Shown here piece by piece: positions 1,425-20,624 of a stretch of 64,000 bases of DNA (positions are counted from its first letter, which is position 1; the number at the start of each line of letters is the position of its first letter). The position numbers were made by a program, and so were the translations under genes. The notes beneath the pieces were generated by a model that was not told where the DNA came from, did no database searches, and worked only from the letters and a program-made list of their open reading frames with translations. Source of the DNA: Saccoglossus kowalevskii (taxonomy: Eukaryota; Hemichordata; Enteropneusta; Harrimaniidae); assembly GCF_000003605.2 (NCBI RefSeq), contig NW_003135357.1:25085-89084 (forward strand). Reading direction: 5' to 3'.

Positions 1425-3042
1425 TTAGTCCTGCTCCTCGATATCCCTAAGTTCTTGCTGAATTAATGGAATGTGTACATCGTGTTCATGTTCCCCATGC
1501 GCACCATTTATGTTTGTCCATCTTCCCAATAAATACGTACACTTACAACAAAAATGTCTTAGTCGCTGTCCCAATCCCTCGTGACTTATTTTTTTATTAT
1601 CGTCATGCTCTTTTCTTGCTTTTTCTGGCATTGCTTTTATAAGTCGCTTCCAGAATTTATCAACGTTTTTGTGATTGCCGTCTTTTGGCCAAGATATGTA
1701 CACGACAGTTTTCAATATAGATCTCAAACTGGGTCGCATATTTTCCATGTGAGTGATGTCATCGAACATAATCGGAATCAGTTTCTGTTTCAACGCAACC
1801 ATTTCTTGGTGCGCAAAATGCAATTCGTACTCGCACCAAACACTTTCCGCAAATGCCGGTGAGAGAATCAGAAGAGTTCGCCGACTTTCTTCAATGCCTT
1901 GGATGATATTGTCGACAATAGCTGTAATTATGAAAGTGAGCCAGTCAGTAATGAGTACTTTGAATTAGGAATGGTCGATGCAATTTCACAAACTGTCAGT
2001 TTGAAAGATGTGCGTATCCTATATCGATAATTCTGGATGTGATTAAAAAAGAAGAGTTTTCAAGTAATCTGTCAAACATAACCTAGAGGTGGACCACGTG
2101 TCTAGCAATATGTTTTAAGTTATACTAACCATCCCCGACTATAAAGTCTCTGTGGTGATAACATAACTTGTAGTTATACTTCTTTTCCAGCGTTGGCAAC
2201 AATGTTCGATACACGAATACCTCCTCTGGTGAGTTTCCTTTCACGGACACGAATGCGTCATATTTCCGACCGTCTGTGGAAGAAAAAGAACATTCAGAAA
2301 ATAGACATATGAATGATGAGTATACATTTGCAAGTAGTCTAATACGGGTCGTATACCCACTCAGTATGCAAGATTGACATGATAACCAGGGCCGAGGTAT
2401 GTGTGTGATCTTAAGGTGCAAAACACTGCTTTCTAGCAGCGCAATGAACTGTTGTATAACAGGTGTGTCAGAGAAGTGTAACTTTCTGTGTAGAAAAAAA
2501 TACACTTCTGTTGAAAAGTATTTTCTAGATTTCGACGGCAGAGGGTGCGGTACTCAAGATGACTGTACTAAAGGTATATCATTTTTAATGATGAAAACAA
2601 AATTAATTATAAAACGTTTGGAAGTGTATCCAAACACTTGTTGAAAGAATATATACAGCCAAGAATATTTCTATATAATAACAGTCAATTTTGGGTTTTT
2701 ATTGGGGAATATGTGCAATTGGATGAGATACCCAAAATGTCATGAAAAGAACTTTTTTTACTTTCTTTCTCGTAGGTAAGTGCCAACCAGTGGACTAAGC
2801 TGGCAACTGGGCAAACATAATATTATTCAAAGCAATATTTCTAACTATCATAATTATCAAAAACACACTATCCAATAAAAAAAAATTACCGTCGTCCTCG
2901 TAAATTCGGAATCTATCAGCAACTAGGGTTTGAATTTCGAGTCTGTATTTGTAACCAACGTACGGACCGATTACACATAACAATGCAAAAACCAATACTA
3001 CTAGCGAAGTAATTATGCCAAGTACTGACAGAGAAATACCAC
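1425..3042 (-). other. Transmembrane helix and cytoplasmic TIR domain of the receptor
   Basis: Exon 2890-3042 encodes the membrane helix (LSVLGIITSLVVLVFALLCV) and a short juxtamembrane stretch. Exons 2130-2273 and 1425-1921 encode the TIR domain: box 1 YDAFVSV, box 2 LCYHHRDFIVGD, the alpha-C region SRRTLLILSPAFAESVWCEY, and box 3 KFW near residue 744. The pattern is that of Toll/IL-1R signalling TIRs, not NAD-cleaving SARM types. In the BB loop the proline common in vertebrate receptors is valine, as in RDWLVG-type Toll proteins. About 65 residues follow box 3, rich in lysine, histidine, cysteine and glutamate, with no domain I recognise. Confidence 0.9.
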
Positions 3043-6000
3043 CTGTATGAGAGAGATAAACAAAAATGATAAAATGAAGGCTACACATTACTTCAATAAA
3101 CAGGGCACTTGTTTACGTGTTGTGCGCGTGCGCATACCTAGTGTTTACGTTTTACGCGCGTGTGCGTGAGCAGGAACTGGTTGACAAGAACCGGTCGTTC
3201 ACACCCGAAGATAAGATAACGGCGTTGCGTTGTTAGCTGATGTTGTATTTAGGTATCTTATTGGTACAATTGTCACTACAGTCTGTGAGCTAGTGGTGAT
3301 AAGTGAGCGCCATCACACTTTCGCATGTTGGTTGGCATAAATGTAAACATTTGACGTCACAGTGCGACGACCTATAAATTTCGTGAATATTCTCGGTTGG
3401 ACCACAATCTCTCAATGAGGGACTGTGGTTGGACTTACGATTGGTTTTGGTCACGTTGACGGTGAATACACAGGTACCGACATTACCGTCTTCATCCACT
3501 GCCTCGTATATTACGTCATATTCTCCGGCTGAAAACCCATCACCGGGGCGATGATTCGCCGTGACGTTTACACGATCTGAATTGTCAATTACAGTCGGTT
3601 CTTTCCACGTTGCTGTGGTCTGACTGTTATGGGGTTTGAGGTGAAGGTCGATGTTAACTGGACAGCCTTCGAACACGGGTGTCTGTATATCTATAGAAAG
3701 AAAAGAAATAAACAAAAAATAAAAGAACTTTCATGTTTCTAAAATCCATGAACTTTCTATTTATACATTTGGATCCGCTAATACTGACAAAAATACATGT
3801 GCCATGTTACCTTGTTGACAAGTTGTTCCGTTCCATCCACTCAAACAAGAGCATCCGTTGTACCTGTCACAAGTGGCGCTGTGCACACAATTACATTCGT
3901 ATTGACAAGACAACCCCCATTTGTTAACACCACAACCTACAGAACATGACAATAATATCTTATAAAGCGCGAAGAACGTCGCTCCGCGCCCTGATCGAAT
4001 GGGACTCATAGCGACGCACGTAAAAATGTTTACATGAAATTCGAACACGCGCTGTGCGACGTTAACATTTGGCTATCAAAAAATGGTTATTATGTCTGTC
4101 CGAGGGATAAATGACCGTTAACTTACCGGTGACGACGAGTTTCCCAGTATTGTTGTATATTTTACCATCCATTCCGTGAATCTCACATTTATATATACCC
4201 GAATCTCTATCGATCACGGGATAAATCATGAGCGTCGATTGACTGTGGATATAAACGGATCAGCGTCATGGTATGGAATAGTATATGGTACATGATATAT
4301 ACGGTAGAGGGGCAAAAATGCTGTTCATTCACAGTGGTAAGTGAGTACGACGCGACGTATGCAACGCACACTCTAGCTGCCCTTACACAATAGGATTACT
4401 GGCATGCCAGGTTATACTTACGCATCCGGGTTCATCGTAATTCTTAATCTTGATCGCGCCGGTTCTGAGAGCCAGGATACGTCGTCTTCATCGAGTACCT
4501 GCCCATTACGATACCAGACAACATCGTAATGGTGATCGATCACTTCGATATTTTTGTGAACACAAAAGAAGTTCACAGTAACACCGTAAACGACTTCTTG
4601 AATCTGTGGTCTAACCTCTAAGGCAACTTTTTCTAATTAAGAAAGGATAGAAATAATTAATTACGTGAGAATTCCTGGATGTCGAAGAAAGAGGCGTTTG
4701 TGCCGTGTAGAAGCATGTGCTATTGCGCCCCACAGAAACCCGATAATGATCGATTGGAACTTAAAATGACGGTATATTATTCAATATAGAAGTCGCATTT
4801 AGGAGAACCAAAAACAAGAACATGAGGGTCTTTTTAGTGGGTTTCGTGTTTTGGATATTGAATGTCACTGTTGTCTTTCCTGATGTTTGTTTGTTATGTG
4901 CAAAGTGCAAGAGCGAGCATTTTTGCCGCCACAGCAGCCATATTTATGTTTGGTACTACATGACAGGGCTGTGCGACCATCTCTCTATTAAATGGCAGTT
5001 TAATGTGCTATCCTGGCGCGAACCAGGTCCGGTCAAACACAAGCACCTGCGTACCTAAACCAAGGTACCCTCAAAGTCGCATCCGTTAGTGATTGTTAGT
5101 TCTGACGTGTTCACTCTTGGCACGCTGGGACGTTTTCGAGACTACTTTATTTCATGTGTCAAAATACATACTTTTGTAATGGTATTGTATATCACCTCAT
5201 TGTATTGATATGTAATAGTAGTGCCGTTGGTGGAACTGAAAATGGCGGAAGAAGTCAAACGTGAGCTTTGTGGTTTCTTTGCTGCTTCGTGAGTTCCTGA
5301 GCCAACACATTACGACCACCGTAATTAACATATCAAGTCATGTCGCGTTACACTGCGTCTCTACCAGAAACGGTTTACCGGTAAACAGCTTTAGACTTCC
5401 ATGGTTTACGCCACCATGCGACAAGTGCGTGAGAGTACGTTGAAAGAGGACTGGTATTATAGATTACCCTACCTATGTCACAAGCGGGTCCAGTCCAGCC
5501 GAATTGGCATTTACATGCACCATTGAAACCATGGCAACTCGCATCATTTTGACAGATGCATTCATTTTCGCATTTAAATCCATATTTTCCTGTAGGGCAG
5601 CCTAAGTGAAGCGGGGAACAGACCAAGTTAGTAATTACCCATGCACACAACCTCAAAACTATGTAAAACTTGTGTGTTGACTAAAGACATGCAACACACA
5701 GATTTAGTAGTTATCTACATATTAAAATCTTGTGACTATGCGTAACAGTGCGATGACCGCCCTATGTTGCATAATTGTGGAAAAAATAGATTTCATTTTT
5801 ATTTTTCTCAAAAACAAGAAGCCGGTTAACACCCACTTCCATTCTTAGACTATCAACTTCCATTCTTTGTTATGTACAACATCGACCGGCGAACAGTGCG
5901 ACTGCGGATTATCATAGTCTTGAAATGTACTACAACAAATTGTAGAGACGATTAACTAGGGGCAGAAATAAAAGAAACTTGAAAGACAAAAAATGATTGC

Positions 6001-9000
6001 AACCCATTCTCTTCTACCTGCACGAATTAAGAAATGACTGGGTGTCATAGAGTCGTGATCGGTTCGTATCTGCAAAACTTGAAATATGGTGGTGTTTGCC
6101 ATCCTCTGTAAACTTACCCGCGGGCACCATTTGAAATCTTTTTCTCATCAAACTTTCATGACCATTATTTAGTTCACATGGCACATCCACTGCAATGTTC
6201 GCCATATTTGAAAATCTTGCAACAACAATAATGATGTCATCGGACTCCGGATTCGAAGCGTCAACCCAACTGCTGTCTATGAACGGACTGCCAGAGAGGG
6301 CGCTATTGTTCTACAAATGAAAAACAAGCCTGGTTATCTTGGCATAACAGAATAATTGAATATTCTATTGTTAGTATACCGATGAATGTATTATGTTATA
6401 GAAGATATAAATTCACAGCCTGTCAGTAGTATGCACTACGAGGACACCGCTATAATCATAAACAACATACCGGTGAAAATGCTTGGAAAGAAACGTCAAT
6501 TAAATCACATTCAATTTGAAATTCGTTGACGCCTCCGATATTAATGCTGCTTCCCGTGCGCGTTGAGAAGTAAATATCAAAATAACCTGGAAAAAGAAAT
6601 ATTGTGCATTAAATTCGCATCATCCCGAATGACCAATTTTTAGATACACGCATCATGTTCAGCCCGGCGAGCACGACAGTTCACGCAGATGGTCTCTGAA
6701 AGCATCATGATCAACTTGTCACGGCGTGTAACCGGAAAATTGTGTATCAAGGTTGATACACGGCGAGTGACAAATGTGGAACAGAACTCGATTACATATT
6801 TCGAAACAAATTTCAACCACTTCTATTATATTCATTCATTTGTTAATTTCTTGATATTGTACTTTTCTCAAAGGAAGAAAACTGACGCCAAACACAGTGA
6901 TTGTAACGCTCACTCAGTTTTTCAGAAATGCAATTTATAGTTTTGTTCCGTTAGTAGTTACTCACATTCTCCATTATAAGAATCCGCCATGAACAACTTG
7001 TCCAGATCGAACCTCGAAGAGACAAATGTCAACATATTATCACCTTTGCCGGAAAGTACGTCATAGAGAAAACCTGAACTCTGCAAAAAAATAAATAAAT
7101 AAATACATTGTCATTGAAATGTTGTTCTTCAGATCAGCTAACATCTTCCTAATAACGGATGCATTCTAATTTGATAAATTAACGAGTTATAAGAAGCAAT
7201 GAAGTTGTGATTCAGTTAATTCACATACATCAACGTATGAGTACGATGGATTTTGATTCCATCCTACGAGGAGTCAGAAGACTTTTGACGAGGCTCGCAA
7301 GAGGCAAATTTAGCTGTGTATTGACATGATGACGTAGTATCATGTTTGATATTACAAAAAGATACCACTTTATTCAGCCTGCTTTGGCCTTGAGTGACAA
7401 ACATTTTGATTATGTTTTTCAACACTGTATATGCGTCGAGAGACCTTCGCGAAAACAAATGGTATTGCGCAATTGTGAATCACGCACCAATAATTGAGAT
7501 GTTGCCTCATAATTAGAGCGCCCTCTTTCGAGTGATTTTCAAATATTTTGTTTTCATCACCCGAGCCGTTCAAATGAATATATATTACCCGTCTTGTTTC
7601 TCTAACAAACTAATAAAACTGCCGCATCACACCAGCATATTCCCATACGTTTATTCGCAGAAATCACAAAACATGCGTGATAAACTTACGTGTTTTCCAT
7701 TACCATCGGTGATTTGACACGATTCGTTATAATATGGCGGCCAATTCTCAACATCTAGTACGTGAATCGTCAGCGTGACATTATGATTACCATGGATACT
7801 CTGTAAACAAAATCATGTTTTTAGAACAGTGTATTGACATATCTCCGATGTCAATGACAAATTCCCATTTTGAAATGCCGCCTGTTACATCATAATGATT
7901 TGTAAGTAACAATCATATCGTGTTTTTTTCTGTAACAAAATTCATTTTCAATGTCCTATAGTTAAGTGTCCGTGGCAGCAATATCTCAGGTCATATCACC
8001 CACTGCCATTTACAACGGTTTATTAAAGGGCGGTAGTCGTCGCGCCACGCATGTGTGATATATATGGGTCATATATAAACAAAAATGTTTACTTTGGCTG
8101 TTGCGCAGATCAACGAGTCCAAACAAAGACGTTACCAAGCTTCAATTAGGCATTTTTAGGTGACTGGAAGTTATCGAAGTAATCACCGGCGGTAATTAGT
8201 ACAAGTCGCGACCAGTTCAAACCTCATACTTGTGATTTCCATTAGAAGAACGCATTGGATTGTGGGGAAATCAATGTTTATCAACACACATGTCGGCACA
8301 TGCGGCGGCGCGACGACTACCGCCCTTTAAGTTATTTCGCCTAATGTGACAAGGAACAGCGATATTTTAGGTCATATCGCCCATTGTTCTTAGAAGAAGA
8401 AAAAATAAAAAAAAACAAAAAAACAACAAGACGAGATGATTTATATAAAGAATAATTTATAATTATAATTATAATTTTTGCCTTTATTTGTCTTTAATTA
8501 TGACTGAAAGAAGCTGATTGAAATTACAAAGTATGTAGTATGTTTAACAGCTCATGTATGAACAATAACTTTAATAAATATGATTTTACTTGGTAAAAAT
8601 ACTGTATTTTTCCGCATAAAAACGAAAGAATTTTACAATATCGAAAACGGAAAGTCTTTGTCGCAGTGTTCAGCGAAATTTGAGTTTATATCACCCATTG
8701 TTAGTAGCAGAGATATCCCCTGTCGAATCGTCCATTCCATGCAATATCGTCCATATGTATTATCAATCTGCCAGGCAGAGTTCTATTTCTACGAGTATAT
8801 CTCTGCCATCTCACGATCTTATGCTTGTCGTTGATTGGTCGATGCGTCACAGTAGCACTACTTTCAAAGAAGCCCACCAAAACACTGTCATGCAGGTGTT
8901 TGATGATTTTCGAACACGACGAAAGCGTACGCGTTGTTTGTACATTCTGGCAGTTTTCAACTTAGTTATTTGTAGTTAATTTTTTTAGCTTTCCGTACAA

Positions 9001-11236
9001 ACGTAGTGGCAATAGGACGAGTAAGTTAGCTGTCAATGCCAATAAGTGTTTTTGTTTGTTTATATTTTTTCTCCTGGCGATCGACAGGGCTGTCATTATG
9101 GTGAACCGAGTAACACCTTAGTAACCGTTATTACGCGATGAAATTATTTTCTTTTGTAAATTAAAACTATTTTACAGTTTTCAATGCGTTTACAAAAAAA
9201 AATCAATATCAGATATCAATAACACATTTTAAAATTGTTTATCAGTAGAAATAAATCAATACGAGAGTCCTCTAATAGCAAACACACGCCAAGGATACGC
9301 GTAGTAAAAGTCTTGTTTCACCACAAAATGGCGGTGTGTGGTGGCAGAGATACTTTCGGTTGTCTTGCCGCAAAGAACTCTGGGAAGGAGAATGATGTAT
9401 TATATCGCCACAACTCACTTCTCTCATAATGTTTGTACTAGTGACCCAGTTAGTAAAAATCGCGTCAGTATTAACACGGGGCCGATACTTAATTTTTTTT
9501 ATATTGCGAACAGTGGTTAACCAATCAGAGTGTCTGTGCATCTGTCGTCAACTTATTAGAATTCGTGTAAATTGCGATCATATGGCATTATCAGAGTAAT
9601 CTGACAGAATCAGCGGGTGAAAAGAGTATGCATACCACGATGTCAAAAAATACAACAAACTTACTGAATGAATCAGTTTATTACGCTTTGCCTACCACGT
9701 GACAGCTTCAGGGAAATAGAAAGTAAACACGGACATTTGACTGAATGCAGTATTGTGACGCTGTCATTTTGTCTGAGGACACATATCTTTTGCCTTGTGT
9801 AGCTTTGTTATTACCCTCGTAAAAGGGTGCGGGGCAGCACAGCATAACCGCCACGTACCGTACAAGACAACTTGGTATAAATAGCTAGTAACAAAACGAA
9901 TTTCCGTTGCATTGTTTATTCGACACGTACCCTGCATACACCTATCGTCAGTACGTACATGGAATCGACACCATAGTCGAGAAATCTGCTTACGTAGACG
10001 ACTCCATCTTGGTTAACAGCAAACCGTTGGTTCTGAAAAGTGAGAGATTACTGATCATATACAGTAACAAAGTAAAATCACATCAGATTGATAGCAAGGA
10101 CTACCTGTCTTCAAGTGGATATTAATTACCAGGTCCCGGTGACGTGGAACCACACCTGCACATTGATAAGGTTCCGTCACCCTCACAAAAGAAGTCATGC
10201 GCGTGCGTATTAGTGCGATTTACTCACGCAACAGAATGTATGTACGGTAAGTATACGATAAGTATTCCTGTAGTATTTTTGGTCTTTTTTTAAATATTCA
10301 CAAAAAATACCTATCATCGCACTTCTATTCGACAATTTTAATGAGAGGACAATTCATTCATTTTTCGACTTACACTTACTGGGGGACAGCCAAAACAGTC
10401 CTGCAGGGTTGTGAACATTTAAGTTAAAGACAAAGAAAAAATACACAGGTGACATCAACTTGAAGATTGGAAATCGAGCGTAACCATGGTAAATAAATGA
10501 TTTGTTATTCTTAATTACGGCAACTTGTAATATGTGAGCATGAAAACTATAAATCTAAACTGAACTCTAAACTGAAAATGGCATACTAGGCTGGTATTTT
10601 GAGCGTCTCGCATGTGAAGCCAGCCCGCATGTCACGGCAAACAGCATGTTCGTAACACCGGGAATACTGGTTTCACTAGACTCGTTTCTTTGCATGTCTT
10701 CTAACTATGCGTTATGCGTAAAATTCGATTGGCTTTTTTTTTTATTAACAAGCTTTTTAAAGTAACGAATAACCGTAAGGACAATTATAGAAAACAAACA
10801 ATGTAGCACACCTTATTTCCGGTCAGTATTGTGACTCCATCTTGGGTCCTCCCTGCGCCAATGCCTATTGGTAAAACGATAATTTCTGTACCGATTCCAA
10901 CGTCCTTCGTGTTGATTAACGAATGAAATGAAAATAAAATGAAATGCCCATAACATTAGATCATAAATTCTCTTAAACCATTAGTCTCCAAAACTTATAG
11001 TGGCCATATCGATATATTTAAACGTTAAAAGCGGAGGCATTCAATGAATAAGAAAACAGGCGAAAAATTATATTATAAATTAACCAAATAAATAAAATGC
11101 AATACTACTATTAATAATTCCTGACAAAACTCACCTCGTTGACGGACACTATCAAATTTGAAAATGAATTCTCTCCACCACAATATAATACCCCCATAAA
11201 CAAAATGGCGATTCTAATCCAGGCTACGTCTGACAT
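1425..11236 (-). CDS. Cadherin-EGF-Ig-EGF-HYR-TM-TIR receptor, 15 exons, 819 aa
   Basis: Exons, 5' to 3' on the minus strand: 11135-11236, 10812-10904, 9931-10032, 7690-7800, 6966-7080, 6471-6586, 6118-6310, 5473-5601, 4422-4632, 4127-4242, 3811-3936, 3439-3690, 2890-3042, 2130-2273, 1425-1921. All junctions are GT-AG with matching phases, and the sum is 2460 nt. The chosen ATG at 11236 opens a signal peptide (core AWIRIAILFMGVLYC). Order: cadherin repeat about 22-122; unassigned region 123-277; EGF-like 278-320; Ig-like 321-429; EGF-like 430-471; HYR 472-553; transmembrane helix about 558-585; TIR about 608-752; basic and charged tail to 819. It is a type I membrane receptor whose TIR would recruit cytosolic adaptors. 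The ligand is unknown. TIR receptors with Ig, EGF or HYR parts occur in invertebrates; I know of none that also carries a cadherin repeat. Transcript evidence is lacking, and exons 2 and 3 are the least certain. Confidence 0.85.
3439..5601 (-). other. EGF-Ig-EGF-HYR block of the receptor
   Basis: Exon 5473-5601 encodes one EGF-like module (GCPTGKYGFKCENECIC, later CQFGWTGPAC). Exons 4422-4632 and 4127-4242 encode one Ig domain: cysteine in VNFFCVH, tryptophan in VVWYRNG, and DRDSGIYKCEIHG with the second cysteine. Exon 3811-3936 encodes a second EGF-like module (WGLSCQYECNC, CLSGWNGTTC). Exon 3439-3690 is a complete HYR domain with the diagnostic AVDEDGNVGTCVFTVNV end. The EGF modules resemble the laminin/Tie/MEGF type. 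Every module is bounded by phase-1 introns, a pattern typical of domains moved by exon shuffling. Confidence 0.88.
3962..4065. mobile_element. TTAA-family MITE, copy 1 (in receptor intron)
   Basis: A GC-rich stretch starting AAAGCGCG and ending GCGACG before TTAA. It shares the core GGGACTCATAGCGACG and the motif ACATGAAATTCGAACACGCG with copy 3 at 44533-44665. It fills over half of the 190-bp intron between the Ig and second EGF exons. The left flank is degenerate (TATAA in place of TTAA). Confidence 0.6.
6118..7080 (-). other. Unassigned extracellular region of the receptor (residues 137-277)
   Basis: Exons 6966-7080, 6471-6586 and 6118-6310 encode about 140 residues that I cannot place in a family. 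Visible features are the stretch YFDIYFSTRTGSS, several cysteines (for example GECYFD, QIECDLID, VPCELNN) and alternating hydrophobic strands such as DDIIIVVARFSN. The secondary-structure feel is beta-rich and it ends just before the first EGF module. It may be a degenerate second cadherin repeat or a lectin-like beta sandwich; neither is shown by the sequence. Confidence 0.55.
7690..11236 (-). other. Signal peptide and cadherin repeat segment of the receptor
   Basis: Four phase-0 exons encode this part. After the signal peptide, residues 29-45 read like a cadherin first strand (VSVNEDVGIGTEIIVLP). Residues 66-85 carry the F-V-N-DG-V-Y-V-S-R pattern and the LDYG that replaces the usual LDxE. 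Residues about 106-120 end in a cadherin-type strand (NVTLTIHVLDVENWPP) where DVENWPP takes the place of the calcium-binding DxNDNxP linker. The repeat spans about 95 residues, near the family norm. Calcium ligands are only partly kept, so rigid calcium-dependent adhesion is uncertain. Large introns separate these exons, and the 300-bp mobile element at 8027-8326 lies in one of them. Confidence 0.75.
8023..8330. mobile_element. TTAA-family MITE, copy 2, 300 bp with clear inverted ends
   Basis: The left end AGGGCGGTAGTCGTCGCGCC and the right end GGCGCGACGACTACCGCCCT are perfect inverted repeats. Both are flanked by TTAA (8023-8026 and 8327-8330), the target-site duplication expected of piggyBac-type insertion. 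No transposase frame is present, so it would depend on an autonomous element elsewhere. It lies in the receptor intron between exons 3 and 4. Confidence 0.85.
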
Positions 11237-18800: not shown

Positions 18801-20490
18801 AATAAGTTGCTTTTGTTTTTGTGTTAATGTTTATAATTGTGCACATGCAATTGTCGAATACGTTTGGTTTACTATATCCTACCTCACTGTACATCGTTGA
18901 ATAACTTAAGTGATGATTTTGTCCATCATTTCGTAGTTTCTTATTGTAAAGTTTAGGAAAGAGGTCTGGGAAATTTCTATTGAGATCGACATCATTAGCG
19001 TTGTTTCTTCCCACATACATCCAGTGACGGTATCCCTGCAATGACAAGTGCACACATGCTAGCTGAATAGAACGGCATACGATCATTGTGACATTCAAGT
19101 TAAACACAGAAACCATACTCACATGCCTTTCCACGTAATCATACGCATATTCGAATCCATCTGGATTCATTGTGGGCATTATGTGTATTCGCGTCGTGTT
19201 CAGAATGTATTCGACTCTTGTGTTTCCATTCTTATATTCGTCACATAAATATTGAACTAGAGATGTTAGTATTGCTCTACCAGTGACCTCGTCTCCGTGC
19301 ATATTACCAATGTACTTGAACTCTGGCTCCACTGTAAGAAAATAGTAATGACCAATATTATAGGGTGACCTCGATAAGTGGAGAGAAATGCACAACATAA
19401 CAGAATACATACATTACGAAGCCAGTTATTTTGGGTGATTTTTCTTGCAGTGTGGCATTTCTTATATGTTATTATAGCTATGAATCGTAGTAACACTGTA
19501 TCAAATTTAATGTCGTCATATAATCAGTAAGTTAACACACTCAATTGCCTACAATGGTGTGCAGTATCACTACAACCCACATAATGGAGTTAATGCTGCT
19601 GCTTAACGCGTTTATGGAAGTACTGGGCGCTTCAGCAAAAACAATACAGTATAGTAAGGGACATTTTGGCACATACCGATACAGTGGATTTTAAATGGTT
19701 TGTTGATAAATTATTGCAATGTTATCTTACAATCAGTACATTTATTTTAAAATTCATGTTTGCTACGAGAAGATATGATACAAACACATTAAATGATTGT
19801 GTTCCCTTAACTCCGTACGAAACAATGTGGGATATAAAACATGTATACATATATGTACGTTTACTATGTTCAAATACAAACTATCAATGCCGAAACTGGA
19901 GATACTTCCAGGGTTATGTATATAACTGTACGACTGCACATAGGACATCGTTTTTCCCCGATACAAACAGTTTGCAATGTGCATTTGTGGCAGATCTTTA
20001 TGCAATCATGTTCATATTTTGTTGAAAATAGAAATACATGGGAATGGTTACGCATTGACGTTATGTTTTCAAGGGGTATACGTCAACATATGTATATCAC
20101 AGGTATGTCAGGCACGTAGAATATGTTTTAGTTTAAAACATTTTCATCATTTGTCCATGAATATCAAAATAAATACTACACGTATAACATATAAACAGTT
20201 TTAATCAGAAGGTAAATTTACGATTACTAGCAGAAAACAGTAGCTCAATTCTGAAACATTGTATACTCACACATCTCATGTTGACCTGGGTTGTCCGTCA
20301 TCTCTAGAACCCATAACTTACGCCCTTCAACGCTGTAGCCGATACTGTACAGTCTGGTGATGCTAGGACAGTCTGATGCTACTCTCTGGAGAACGTTAAC
20401 TAAATCATCGTAACGGTAGTGATCGATACAATATACAATATGTACGAGAGCAAGGATTGATACTGCATGTAATATTGCCCACTTCATCAT
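15807..20490 (-). CDS. Secreted M14B metallocarboxypeptidase (carboxypeptidase M/N/E type), 7 exons, 463 aa
   Basis: Exons: 20271-20490, 19123-19331, 18883-19035, 18230-18527, 17544-17683, 17289-17388, 15807-16078. Total 1392 nt with matching phases. The start ATG ATG AAG opens a signal peptide ([17 protein letters not shown]). Zinc ligands His85 and Glu88 (GNMHGDE) and His220 (LSANLHNG) are present, with the substrate-site NR pair in DLNRNFPD and catalytic Glu311 (ITLELG). A transthyretin-like domain follows ([16 protein letters not shown], later VNFTL-like INFTLHS). The family removes C-terminal arginine or lysine from peptides outside the cell or in the secretory route. Length matches carboxypeptidase M (about 440). 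The C-terminus ([13 protein letters not shown]) is too short and polar for a clear GPI signal, so it may be secreted. Orthology within CPM/CPN/CPD/CPE is unresolved. Confidence 0.93.
17814..17838. repeat. (CCA)n microsatellite in a carboxypeptidase intron
   Basis: A run of CCA/ACC triplets between exons 4 and 5 of the carboxypeptidase gene. It creates a spurious glycine-rich frame on the minus strand. Confidence 0.85.
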
Positions 20491-20624
20491 TATATATATG
20501 CAAATACCAGGTGATTATCTGAAAAGATAACAAGCATATTTTATATTATGAGTAAATATGTGTAATGCGTCATCATTGAATTTGAATGGCGCCACGATCT
20601 GAAATTTCAATGTAAATTACAATC

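Follow-up and report, generated by a model that had tools for sequence, protein, structure and literature searches.

Does a single hemichordate gene join a cadherin-type domain to a Toll-type TIR domain and, if so, what kind of receptor does it encode? The question is raised by a locus in a 64,000-nucleotide stretch of the Saccoglossus kowalevskii genome (assembly GCF_000003605.2, contig NW_003135357.1, positions 25,085 to 89,084; hereafter the window), in which a sequence-only reading had described one receptor combining cadherin, EGF, Ig, HYR and TIR modules. On the minus strand, from the ATG at 11236 to the end of the stop codon at 1425, the spliced reading is open over 826 residues, in the order: signal peptide, cadherin-like domain, orphan region, EGF, Ig, EGF, HYR, membrane helix and TIR. 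We consider it probable that this is one gene coding for a type I membrane receptor (cadherin-like and orphan parts, a Tie-like EGF-Ig-EGF part, HYR, helix, TIR), which would bind ligand through its N-terminal modules, pair through its TIR domains and signal through an adaptor.

One reading frame over sixteen exons

All 15 introns are GT-AG, and the phases match at every exon junction. The continuity and phase matching previously described were upheld; the coding exons number 16 (listed below) rather than 15, a difference that may be due to the 21-nucleotide exon at 10400-10380 (DCFGCPP), which is optional without frame change because both neighbouring introns are phase 0.

11135..11236, minus strand: exon 1, start codon, signal peptide and first cadherin strand (LIVSVNE); mean hydropathy 1.62 over residues 1-19, start predicted from the splicing model alone
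10812..10904, minus strand: exon 2, cadherin-like domain (DVGIGTEIIV), phase 0-0; splice model and genome scan, acceptor with a poor pyrimidine tract
10380..10400, minus strand: exon 3, 21-nucleotide microexon, in frame, optional; splice consensus only
9931..10032, minus strand: exon 4, core of the cadherin-like domain (RFAVNQDGVVYVSRFLDY), phase 0-0; Pfam and profile search, counterparts in paralogs A, C and D by eye
7690..7800, minus strand: exon 5, end of the cadherin-like domain and WPPYYNESC motif, phase 0-0; splice model and paralogs
6966..7080, minus strand: exon 6, orphan region part 1; splice model, without Pfam match, weak counterparts in A and D
6471..6586, minus strand: exon 7, orphan region part 2; splice model, weak counterparts in A and D
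6118..6310, minus strand: exon 8, orphan region part 3, phase-1 end; counterpart in A also with a phase-1 end, by eye
5473..5601, minus strand: exon 9, first EGF-like domain, eight cysteines, phase 1-1; genome scan and cysteine count
4422..4632, minus strand: exon 10, Ig first half, phase 1-2; Pfam
4127..4242, minus strand: exon 11, Ig second half, phase 2-1; Pfam and paralogs
3811..3936, minus strand: exon 12, second EGF-like domain, eight cysteines, phase 1-1; PDB match and cysteine count
3439..3690, minus strand: exon 13, HYR domain, phase 1-1; Pfam E 4.5e-14
2890..3042, minus strand: exon 14, transmembrane helix; hydropathy
2130..2273, minus strand: exon 15, TIR part 1; Pfam and PDB
1425..1921, minus strand: exon 16, TIR part 2, C-terminal tail and stop codon; Pfam TIR 8.8e-25, residues 617-769

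The stretch carrying the gene contains no N, and no frame break occurs over the 826 codons. Aligning the spliced protein back to the window DNA returned identical exons, an arithmetic check that provides no independent evidence for them. As a predicted gene model, known here from DNA alone, the receptor locus is confirmed as real. Intron 4 also holds, at 8023-8330, a perfect 24-nucleotide inverted repeat with arms 260 nucleotides apart, which looks like a small inverted-repeat transposon.

Modules of the predicted protein

The proposed presence of all these modules in one gene model was borne out by the open reading, by Pfam, by a match to Tie2 and, for the cadherin part, by the profile comparisons described below. 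In Pfam, of the five domain types to which the sequence-only reading had pointed, TIR (8.8e-25, residues 617-769), HYR (4.5e-14) and I-set (1.2e-5) were above the cut-off; EGF (EGF_Teneurin, 0.014; JAG1-like_EGF2, 1.7) and Cadherin (0.059 with the whole protein, 0.028 and 0.02 with its N-terminal part) were below it. The EGF calls are better supported than these values indicate, since each of the two domains has eight cysteines and the EGF-Ig-EGF-HYR stretch finds its best match in the PDB in Tie2, the angiopoietin receptor (E 2e-10), with the Ig-to-EGF passage aligned. By mean hydropathy the membrane helix stands out clearly (3.09 over the 19 residues 569-587), the signal peptide modestly (1.62 at residues 1-19). 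The TIR domain follows this single helix, as in a Toll-like receptor; its closest PDB matches are TLR1, TLR6 and TLR2 (E down to 2.4e-23), and the IL-1 receptor accessory protein is also among them. No leucine-rich repeat (LRR) was found among the Pfam matches of the protein up to E 5, and Pfam detects no intracellular tyrosine kinase, the TIR domain standing in that place.

The orphan region (exons 6-8, about 140 residues) had no Pfam family match and matched only itself in a scan of its own genome (3/3 matches); in paralogs A and D the corresponding place is taken by exons that have a few residues in common with it. We treat it as a presumably family-specific, cysteine-bearing region. Its reading as a second cadherin domain was rejected (hhalign probability of 0.1 against cadherin repeats), and a resemblance to the secretory lipase LIP1 (E 0.32-0.38) was taken as chance.

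HYR domains were also scanned for across the genome (150 matches scored of 226 candidates). Contigs C165, C1892 and C1189 carry arrays of HYR exons, which we take to be hyalin-like.

Paralogs in the same genome

A genome scan with residues 285-826 gave 87 matches (80 of 242 candidates scored), and six loci besides the window gene, A to F, were looked at. In paralog A (contig C3066) we read counterparts of cadherin exons 2, 4 and 5 and of the orphan exons, then the two EGF exons (EGF1, EGF2) with the Ig between them, HYR together with the helix, and the two TIR exons; upstream of its exon 2 there is a signal-like exon, and a second TIR fragment (A2) is on the same contig. A candidate for exon 4 of A at gene-oriented positions 3954-4055 was dropped for an exon ending at 5358. 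Paralog B (C1119) is open from EGF1 to the TIR end; D (C3692) reads from the cadherin exons through the first TIR exon, with an ambiguous exon 4/5 joint; E (C57) consists of an EGF and half of an Ig; and F (C414) is an EGF near a contig end. Over the EGF1 and TIR exons most differences between A and B fall on third positions, with nonsynonymous (dN) and synonymous (dS) divergences of 0.036 and 0.175. The recurrence on one strand of EGF, Ig, EGF, HYR and TIR in A and B, and of EGF, Ig, EGF, HYR and helix in C (C1518, described below), makes the module order more than chance, and the window gene is a predicted member of a small, partly duplicated family in the S. kowalevskii genome.

Identity over the six pairs formed by the window gene, A, C and D was 23-51% in the cadherin exons, 30-56% in HYR, 40-60% in EGF2 and 62-83% in EGF1. 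The cadherin exons and HYR being about equally variable, the cadherin module is not singled out as the binding site.

In an intron of D, at gene-oriented positions of about 4900-5970, reverse-transcriptase-like reading frames were recognised by eye.

A tree was built with 12 of the 23 TIR matches of the genome (the D fragment was left out), and a 100/100 branch places the window gene, A, A2 and B on one side. Among the eight other TIRs, LRRs were found in 5/6 of the loci with frames read (L029, L024, L026, L031 and L019; L018 was without); for L018, L022 and L027 the label LRR-type was based on the neighbours that they have on their contigs.

A sibling ending in a tyrosine kinase

The sixth locus, C, which is outside the window and thus beyond the view of the sequence-only reading, carries a different intracellular part. 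A genome scan for tyrosine kinases (149 matches listed; 142 of 521 candidates scored) detected a kinase at C1518:14294-13743 (scan E 5.6e-15), on the same strand as, and just behind, the HYR and helix of C. Pfam recognises it at 2.9e-38, and the G-loop, VAIK, HRDIAARN and DFG motifs are visible by eye. The phases in C (EGF1 1-1; Ig 1-2 and 2-1; EGF2 1-1; HYR 1-1; helix from phase 1; then the kinase exons) equal those of the window gene in EGF1, Ig, EGF2, HYR and the start of the helix exon. The gap in C is located past the kinase and nowhere else, so that no interruption separates EGF1 from two exons of cadherin type, of which one, some 6.4 kb upstream, has a WPPYYN motif; splicing of these two exons to EGF1 is putative, and the orphan region of C was not located. 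The nearest other kinase of the genome shares 34% identity with that of C in an alignment covering most of the query; no second kinase-bearing member was seen among the genome kinase matches listed, and no Tie kinase is among the 22 PDB sequences matching the C kinase at E 1e-20 or better.

Hence the predicted EGF-Ig-EGF-HYR-helix block sits on a TIR domain in the window gene, A and B, and on a tyrosine kinase in C. We put at even chances the proposal that a single type of ectodomain, with EGF-Ig-EGF-HYR behind a cadherin-like module, is used with two unrelated signalling parts, TIR and kinase, the inner part having been exchanged behind the shared exon boundary before the helix.

A more specific version, in which the ancestor of the family was a C-like receptor tyrosine kinase and the window gene took its TIR by exchange of the inner part, we judge somewhat less likely than not. 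It would agree with the block and the intron phases common to the window gene and C, with the Tie2 match of the EGF and Ig domains, and with the choanoflagellate receptor RTKB2 of Monosiga, which already joins HYR and EGF to a tyrosine kinase and has a short consensus repeat and a Cys-rich region outside (excerpts of PMC3584944). RTKB2 resembles the window gene in having HYR and EGF on a membrane receptor, and differs from it in the kinase inside, with no TIR, Ig or cadherin mentioned in those excerpts. However, the tree of five ectodomains does not settle the TIR/kinase order, its long branches meeting one another, and the exchange may have run in the reverse direction; and only one kinase member was seen among the matches listed.

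A cadherin-type domain with degenerate calcium sites

The cadherin call was examined in several ways. With single sequences, cadherin-23 was the top match of a PDB search by phmmer (E 0.0016 with all stretches combined, 0.057 for the best stretch), and a scan of the genome with exons 1-5 gave seven matches, four of them self and three on contig C2180 (E 0.004-0.04); the best of the latter, L058, is 31% identical over residues 29-129 and matches Pfam Cadherin at 1.1e-13, and L059 and L060 of the same contig are cadherin repeats by eye. Cadherin is the sole Pfam match of the cadherin-part fragments of A and D (0.0013 and 0.12); the shorter fragment of C has none. With a profile of the four genes (window gene, A, C and D) searched against PDB up to E 10, the best 60 of 120 matches were all of the cadherin superfamily (best E 2.5e-15, for a many-repeat CELSR1 chain; protocadherin 1.5e-8). 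With hhalign against the L058 repeats, the same profile reached a probability of 84, compared to 5.1 or less for 100 column shuffles, 0.1 for the reversed profile and 1.8 or less for the other modules of the window gene; A, D and C without the window gene gave 87, and singly the window gene gave 90 and A 39. The profile search, the shuffles and the leave-out of the window gene rule out a chance call. The domain of exons 1-5, weak in single-sequence Pfam, is firmly predicted by the profile to be of cadherin type, as had been proposed.

What had been built on this repeat, a link between adhesion or cell contact and Toll-type signalling, fared worse. The usual calcium-site motifs of cadherins are PE, LDRE, DxD and DxNDNAP; among the counterparts in the window gene VNED is kept and LDYG, GVC and DVENWPP depart. 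With a lone repeat and most calcium motifs lost, classical calcium-dependent adhesion by the predicted receptor is unlikely. The broader idea of an adhesion-sensing Toll receptor, whose cadherin repeat would contact cells and couple this contact to TIR signalling, we also regard as unlikely: a cadherin-type domain is present, and HYR is called a cellular-adhesion module in a reference title cited by PMC3584944 (seen in excerpts), but the same lone, degenerate repeat and the strong divergence of the cadherin exons among the paralogs argue against it.

One gene or two

Could exons 1-8 instead code for a short cadherin-like protein and exons 9-16 for an EGF-Ig-EGF-HYR-TIR receptor, as two adjacent genes duplicated together? 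The halves do differ in intron phase, the cadherin exons being 0-0 and the EGF and HYR modules, like the Ig pair, 1-1, and the order seen in the paralogs would be explicable by copying as a pair, a duplicated gene pair looking alike. However, the donor of exon 8, GTAAGT, is in phase 1, as is the start of exon 9, and A, read by eye, keeps this phase, with an exon 8 counterpart ending in phase 1 and then an EGF starting in phase 1. The modelled exons 1-8 are moreover without stop, helix or second signal-like stretch, an unmodelled first exon in intron 8 being a possible way round this point. Because A has the cadherin exons, the exon 8 counterpart and the EGF in order, the split that the sequence-only reading had itself considered (a gene ending before 6118 or one starting at 5601) is made less likely, and we judge two genes to be quite improbable. 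That the locus is a pseudogene or an assembly chimaera is very improbable, as, despite the frame breaks in several paralogs, the window gene is unbroken over its whole length, without N, and its module order recurs on other contigs.

A probable recognition receptor with TIR signalling

The window gene most likely codes for a receptor that serves recognition and signals through its TIR domain. Presumably placed at the cell surface and serving in immunity, it would bind a microbial or self ligand with its N-terminal modules, the EGF-Ig-EGF-HYR part acting as a stalk-like spacer and/or a second binding surface; ligand-driven pairing would bring two TIR domains together, and the paired TIRs would recruit a TIR adaptor, starting Toll-type signalling.

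Several observations weigh against this proposal or against the evidence used for it. The gene model is known from DNA only. For the cadherin part, the curated Pfam cut-off of PF00028 (28.8 bits) is reached by none of the genes (window gene 14.2-15.7, A 19.5, D 13.2, C no match), and taken singly against cadherin repeats D and C gave hhalign probabilities of 7.9 and 0.2, the cadherin exons of C being therefore not recognisable alone. The paralogs are imperfect: compared with B, two single-base length differences break the frame of A, in EGF2 and HYR; a frame break in an A run interrupts the kinase reading of C; the EGF1 of E contains a stop; the upstream part of B, where the cadherin half would lie, is an assembly gap; and the second TIR exon of D was not found within the stretch read, for which reason D was set aside as a working TIR receptor. 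This leaves B as the only other open TIR copy. A and B also have HYR and helix in one exon, unlike the window gene and C. On the signalling side, the BB-loop of Toll-like receptors carries a proline, whose position is a valine in the window TIR (RDFIVGD), and no contig with both TIR and Death was found among the matches listed, nor was a MyD88 identified among them, though one may exist. Among the eight other TIRs of the genome 6/8 are without the proline and 2/8 keep it (KNFIPGK). The single-base frame breaks and the stop (A, the kinase exon of C, the EGF of E) may be either assembly errors or decaying copies.

Relation to known receptors

Like Toll-like receptors, the window gene has a TIR domain closest to those of TLR1, TLR6 and TLR2; unlike them, it shows no LRR in Pfam, and its TIR groups apart from the eight others of the genome. 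IL-1 receptors share with it the Ig outside and the TIR inside, and are known with Ig domains only in their ectodomain, whereas the single Ig of the window gene is flanked by EGFs and accompanied by HYR and a cadherin-like domain. With Tie/Tek it shares the Tie2-like ectodomain, and C ends in a tyrosine kinase; the window gene differs in being without a kinase, and Tie is not known to have cadherin or HYR. Cad96Ca/Stitcher is a receptor tyrosine kinase with cadherin repeats, and neither it nor RET is known to have the EGF-Ig-EGF-HYR block. In RET, a receptor tyrosine kinase for which a cadherin part is noted (excerpts of PMC8662651), as in Cad96Ca/Stitcher, a cadherin-type ectodomain sits on a kinase, as perhaps in C.

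Among invertebrates, papers on oyster and Aplysia use EGF-TIR and Ig-TIR as category names (excerpts of PMC4346834 and PMC9334734) for proteins alike in having EGF or Ig instead of LRRs, and the predicted protein has the EGF-like domain together with TIR that the first name denotes. The words cadherin and HYR are absent from the Aplysia main text (PMC9334734); no combination of EGF, Ig, HYR and cadherin was seen in the passages of the oyster paper containing the terms TIR and EGF (PMC4346834); and the main text of a ctenophore immune-gene paper (PMC11797021) contains no cadherin or HYR. For amphioxus, 28 TIR domain combinations are given, 20 of them specific to amphioxus, with the lists in supplements, where cadherin or HYR partners are possible (excerpts of PMC2575513). 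In two predicted proteins of the coral Pocillopora damicornis, 14109 and 17966, PROSITE assigned LRRs, cadherin, EGF_CA, TSP3 and TIR (excerpts of PMC9897584); they have cadherin and EGF outside and TIR inside, as the window gene has, and differ in many LRRs, TSP3 and a thrombospondin C-terminal domain, with no Ig or HYR named in those excerpts. These coral predictions mean that cadherin with TIR is not wholly new. For the exact set, the statement of the sequence-only reading that no such receptor was described is not contradicted: neither the set nor a block common to TIR and kinase receptors was found described in the open-access texts searched, with few subscription papers covered and TIR with kinases being the aim of a single search. 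One paper naming all five domain words was discarded, its domains being listed separately and its HYR matches being the genus Hyriopsis.

Other observations

At 20245-20514 of the window, on the minus strand, there is an exon with a signal peptide and the start of a zinc carboxypeptidase (Pfam Peptidase_M14, 1.5e-9). Elsewhere in the genome, contig C4830 (L061) carries mitochondrial COX1 without AGA or AGG and with a single AAA codon; its ATA codons are, we presume, at known isoleucine positions. We take this codon usage to be ambulacrarian-like, perhaps that of an acorn worm.

Implications

Discussion of Toll-type receptors mostly concerns proteins with LRRs or Ig domains. If a TIR receptor has cadherin-like, Tie-like and HYR modules and a kinase-bearing sibling in the same genome, this would show that the outer part is movable between innate-immune and growth-factor signalling and, if the shared ectodomain proposed here is true, related ligands could be read as Toll-type or as growth-factor-type signals in one animal. 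Whether both siblings see the same ligand becomes a testable question.

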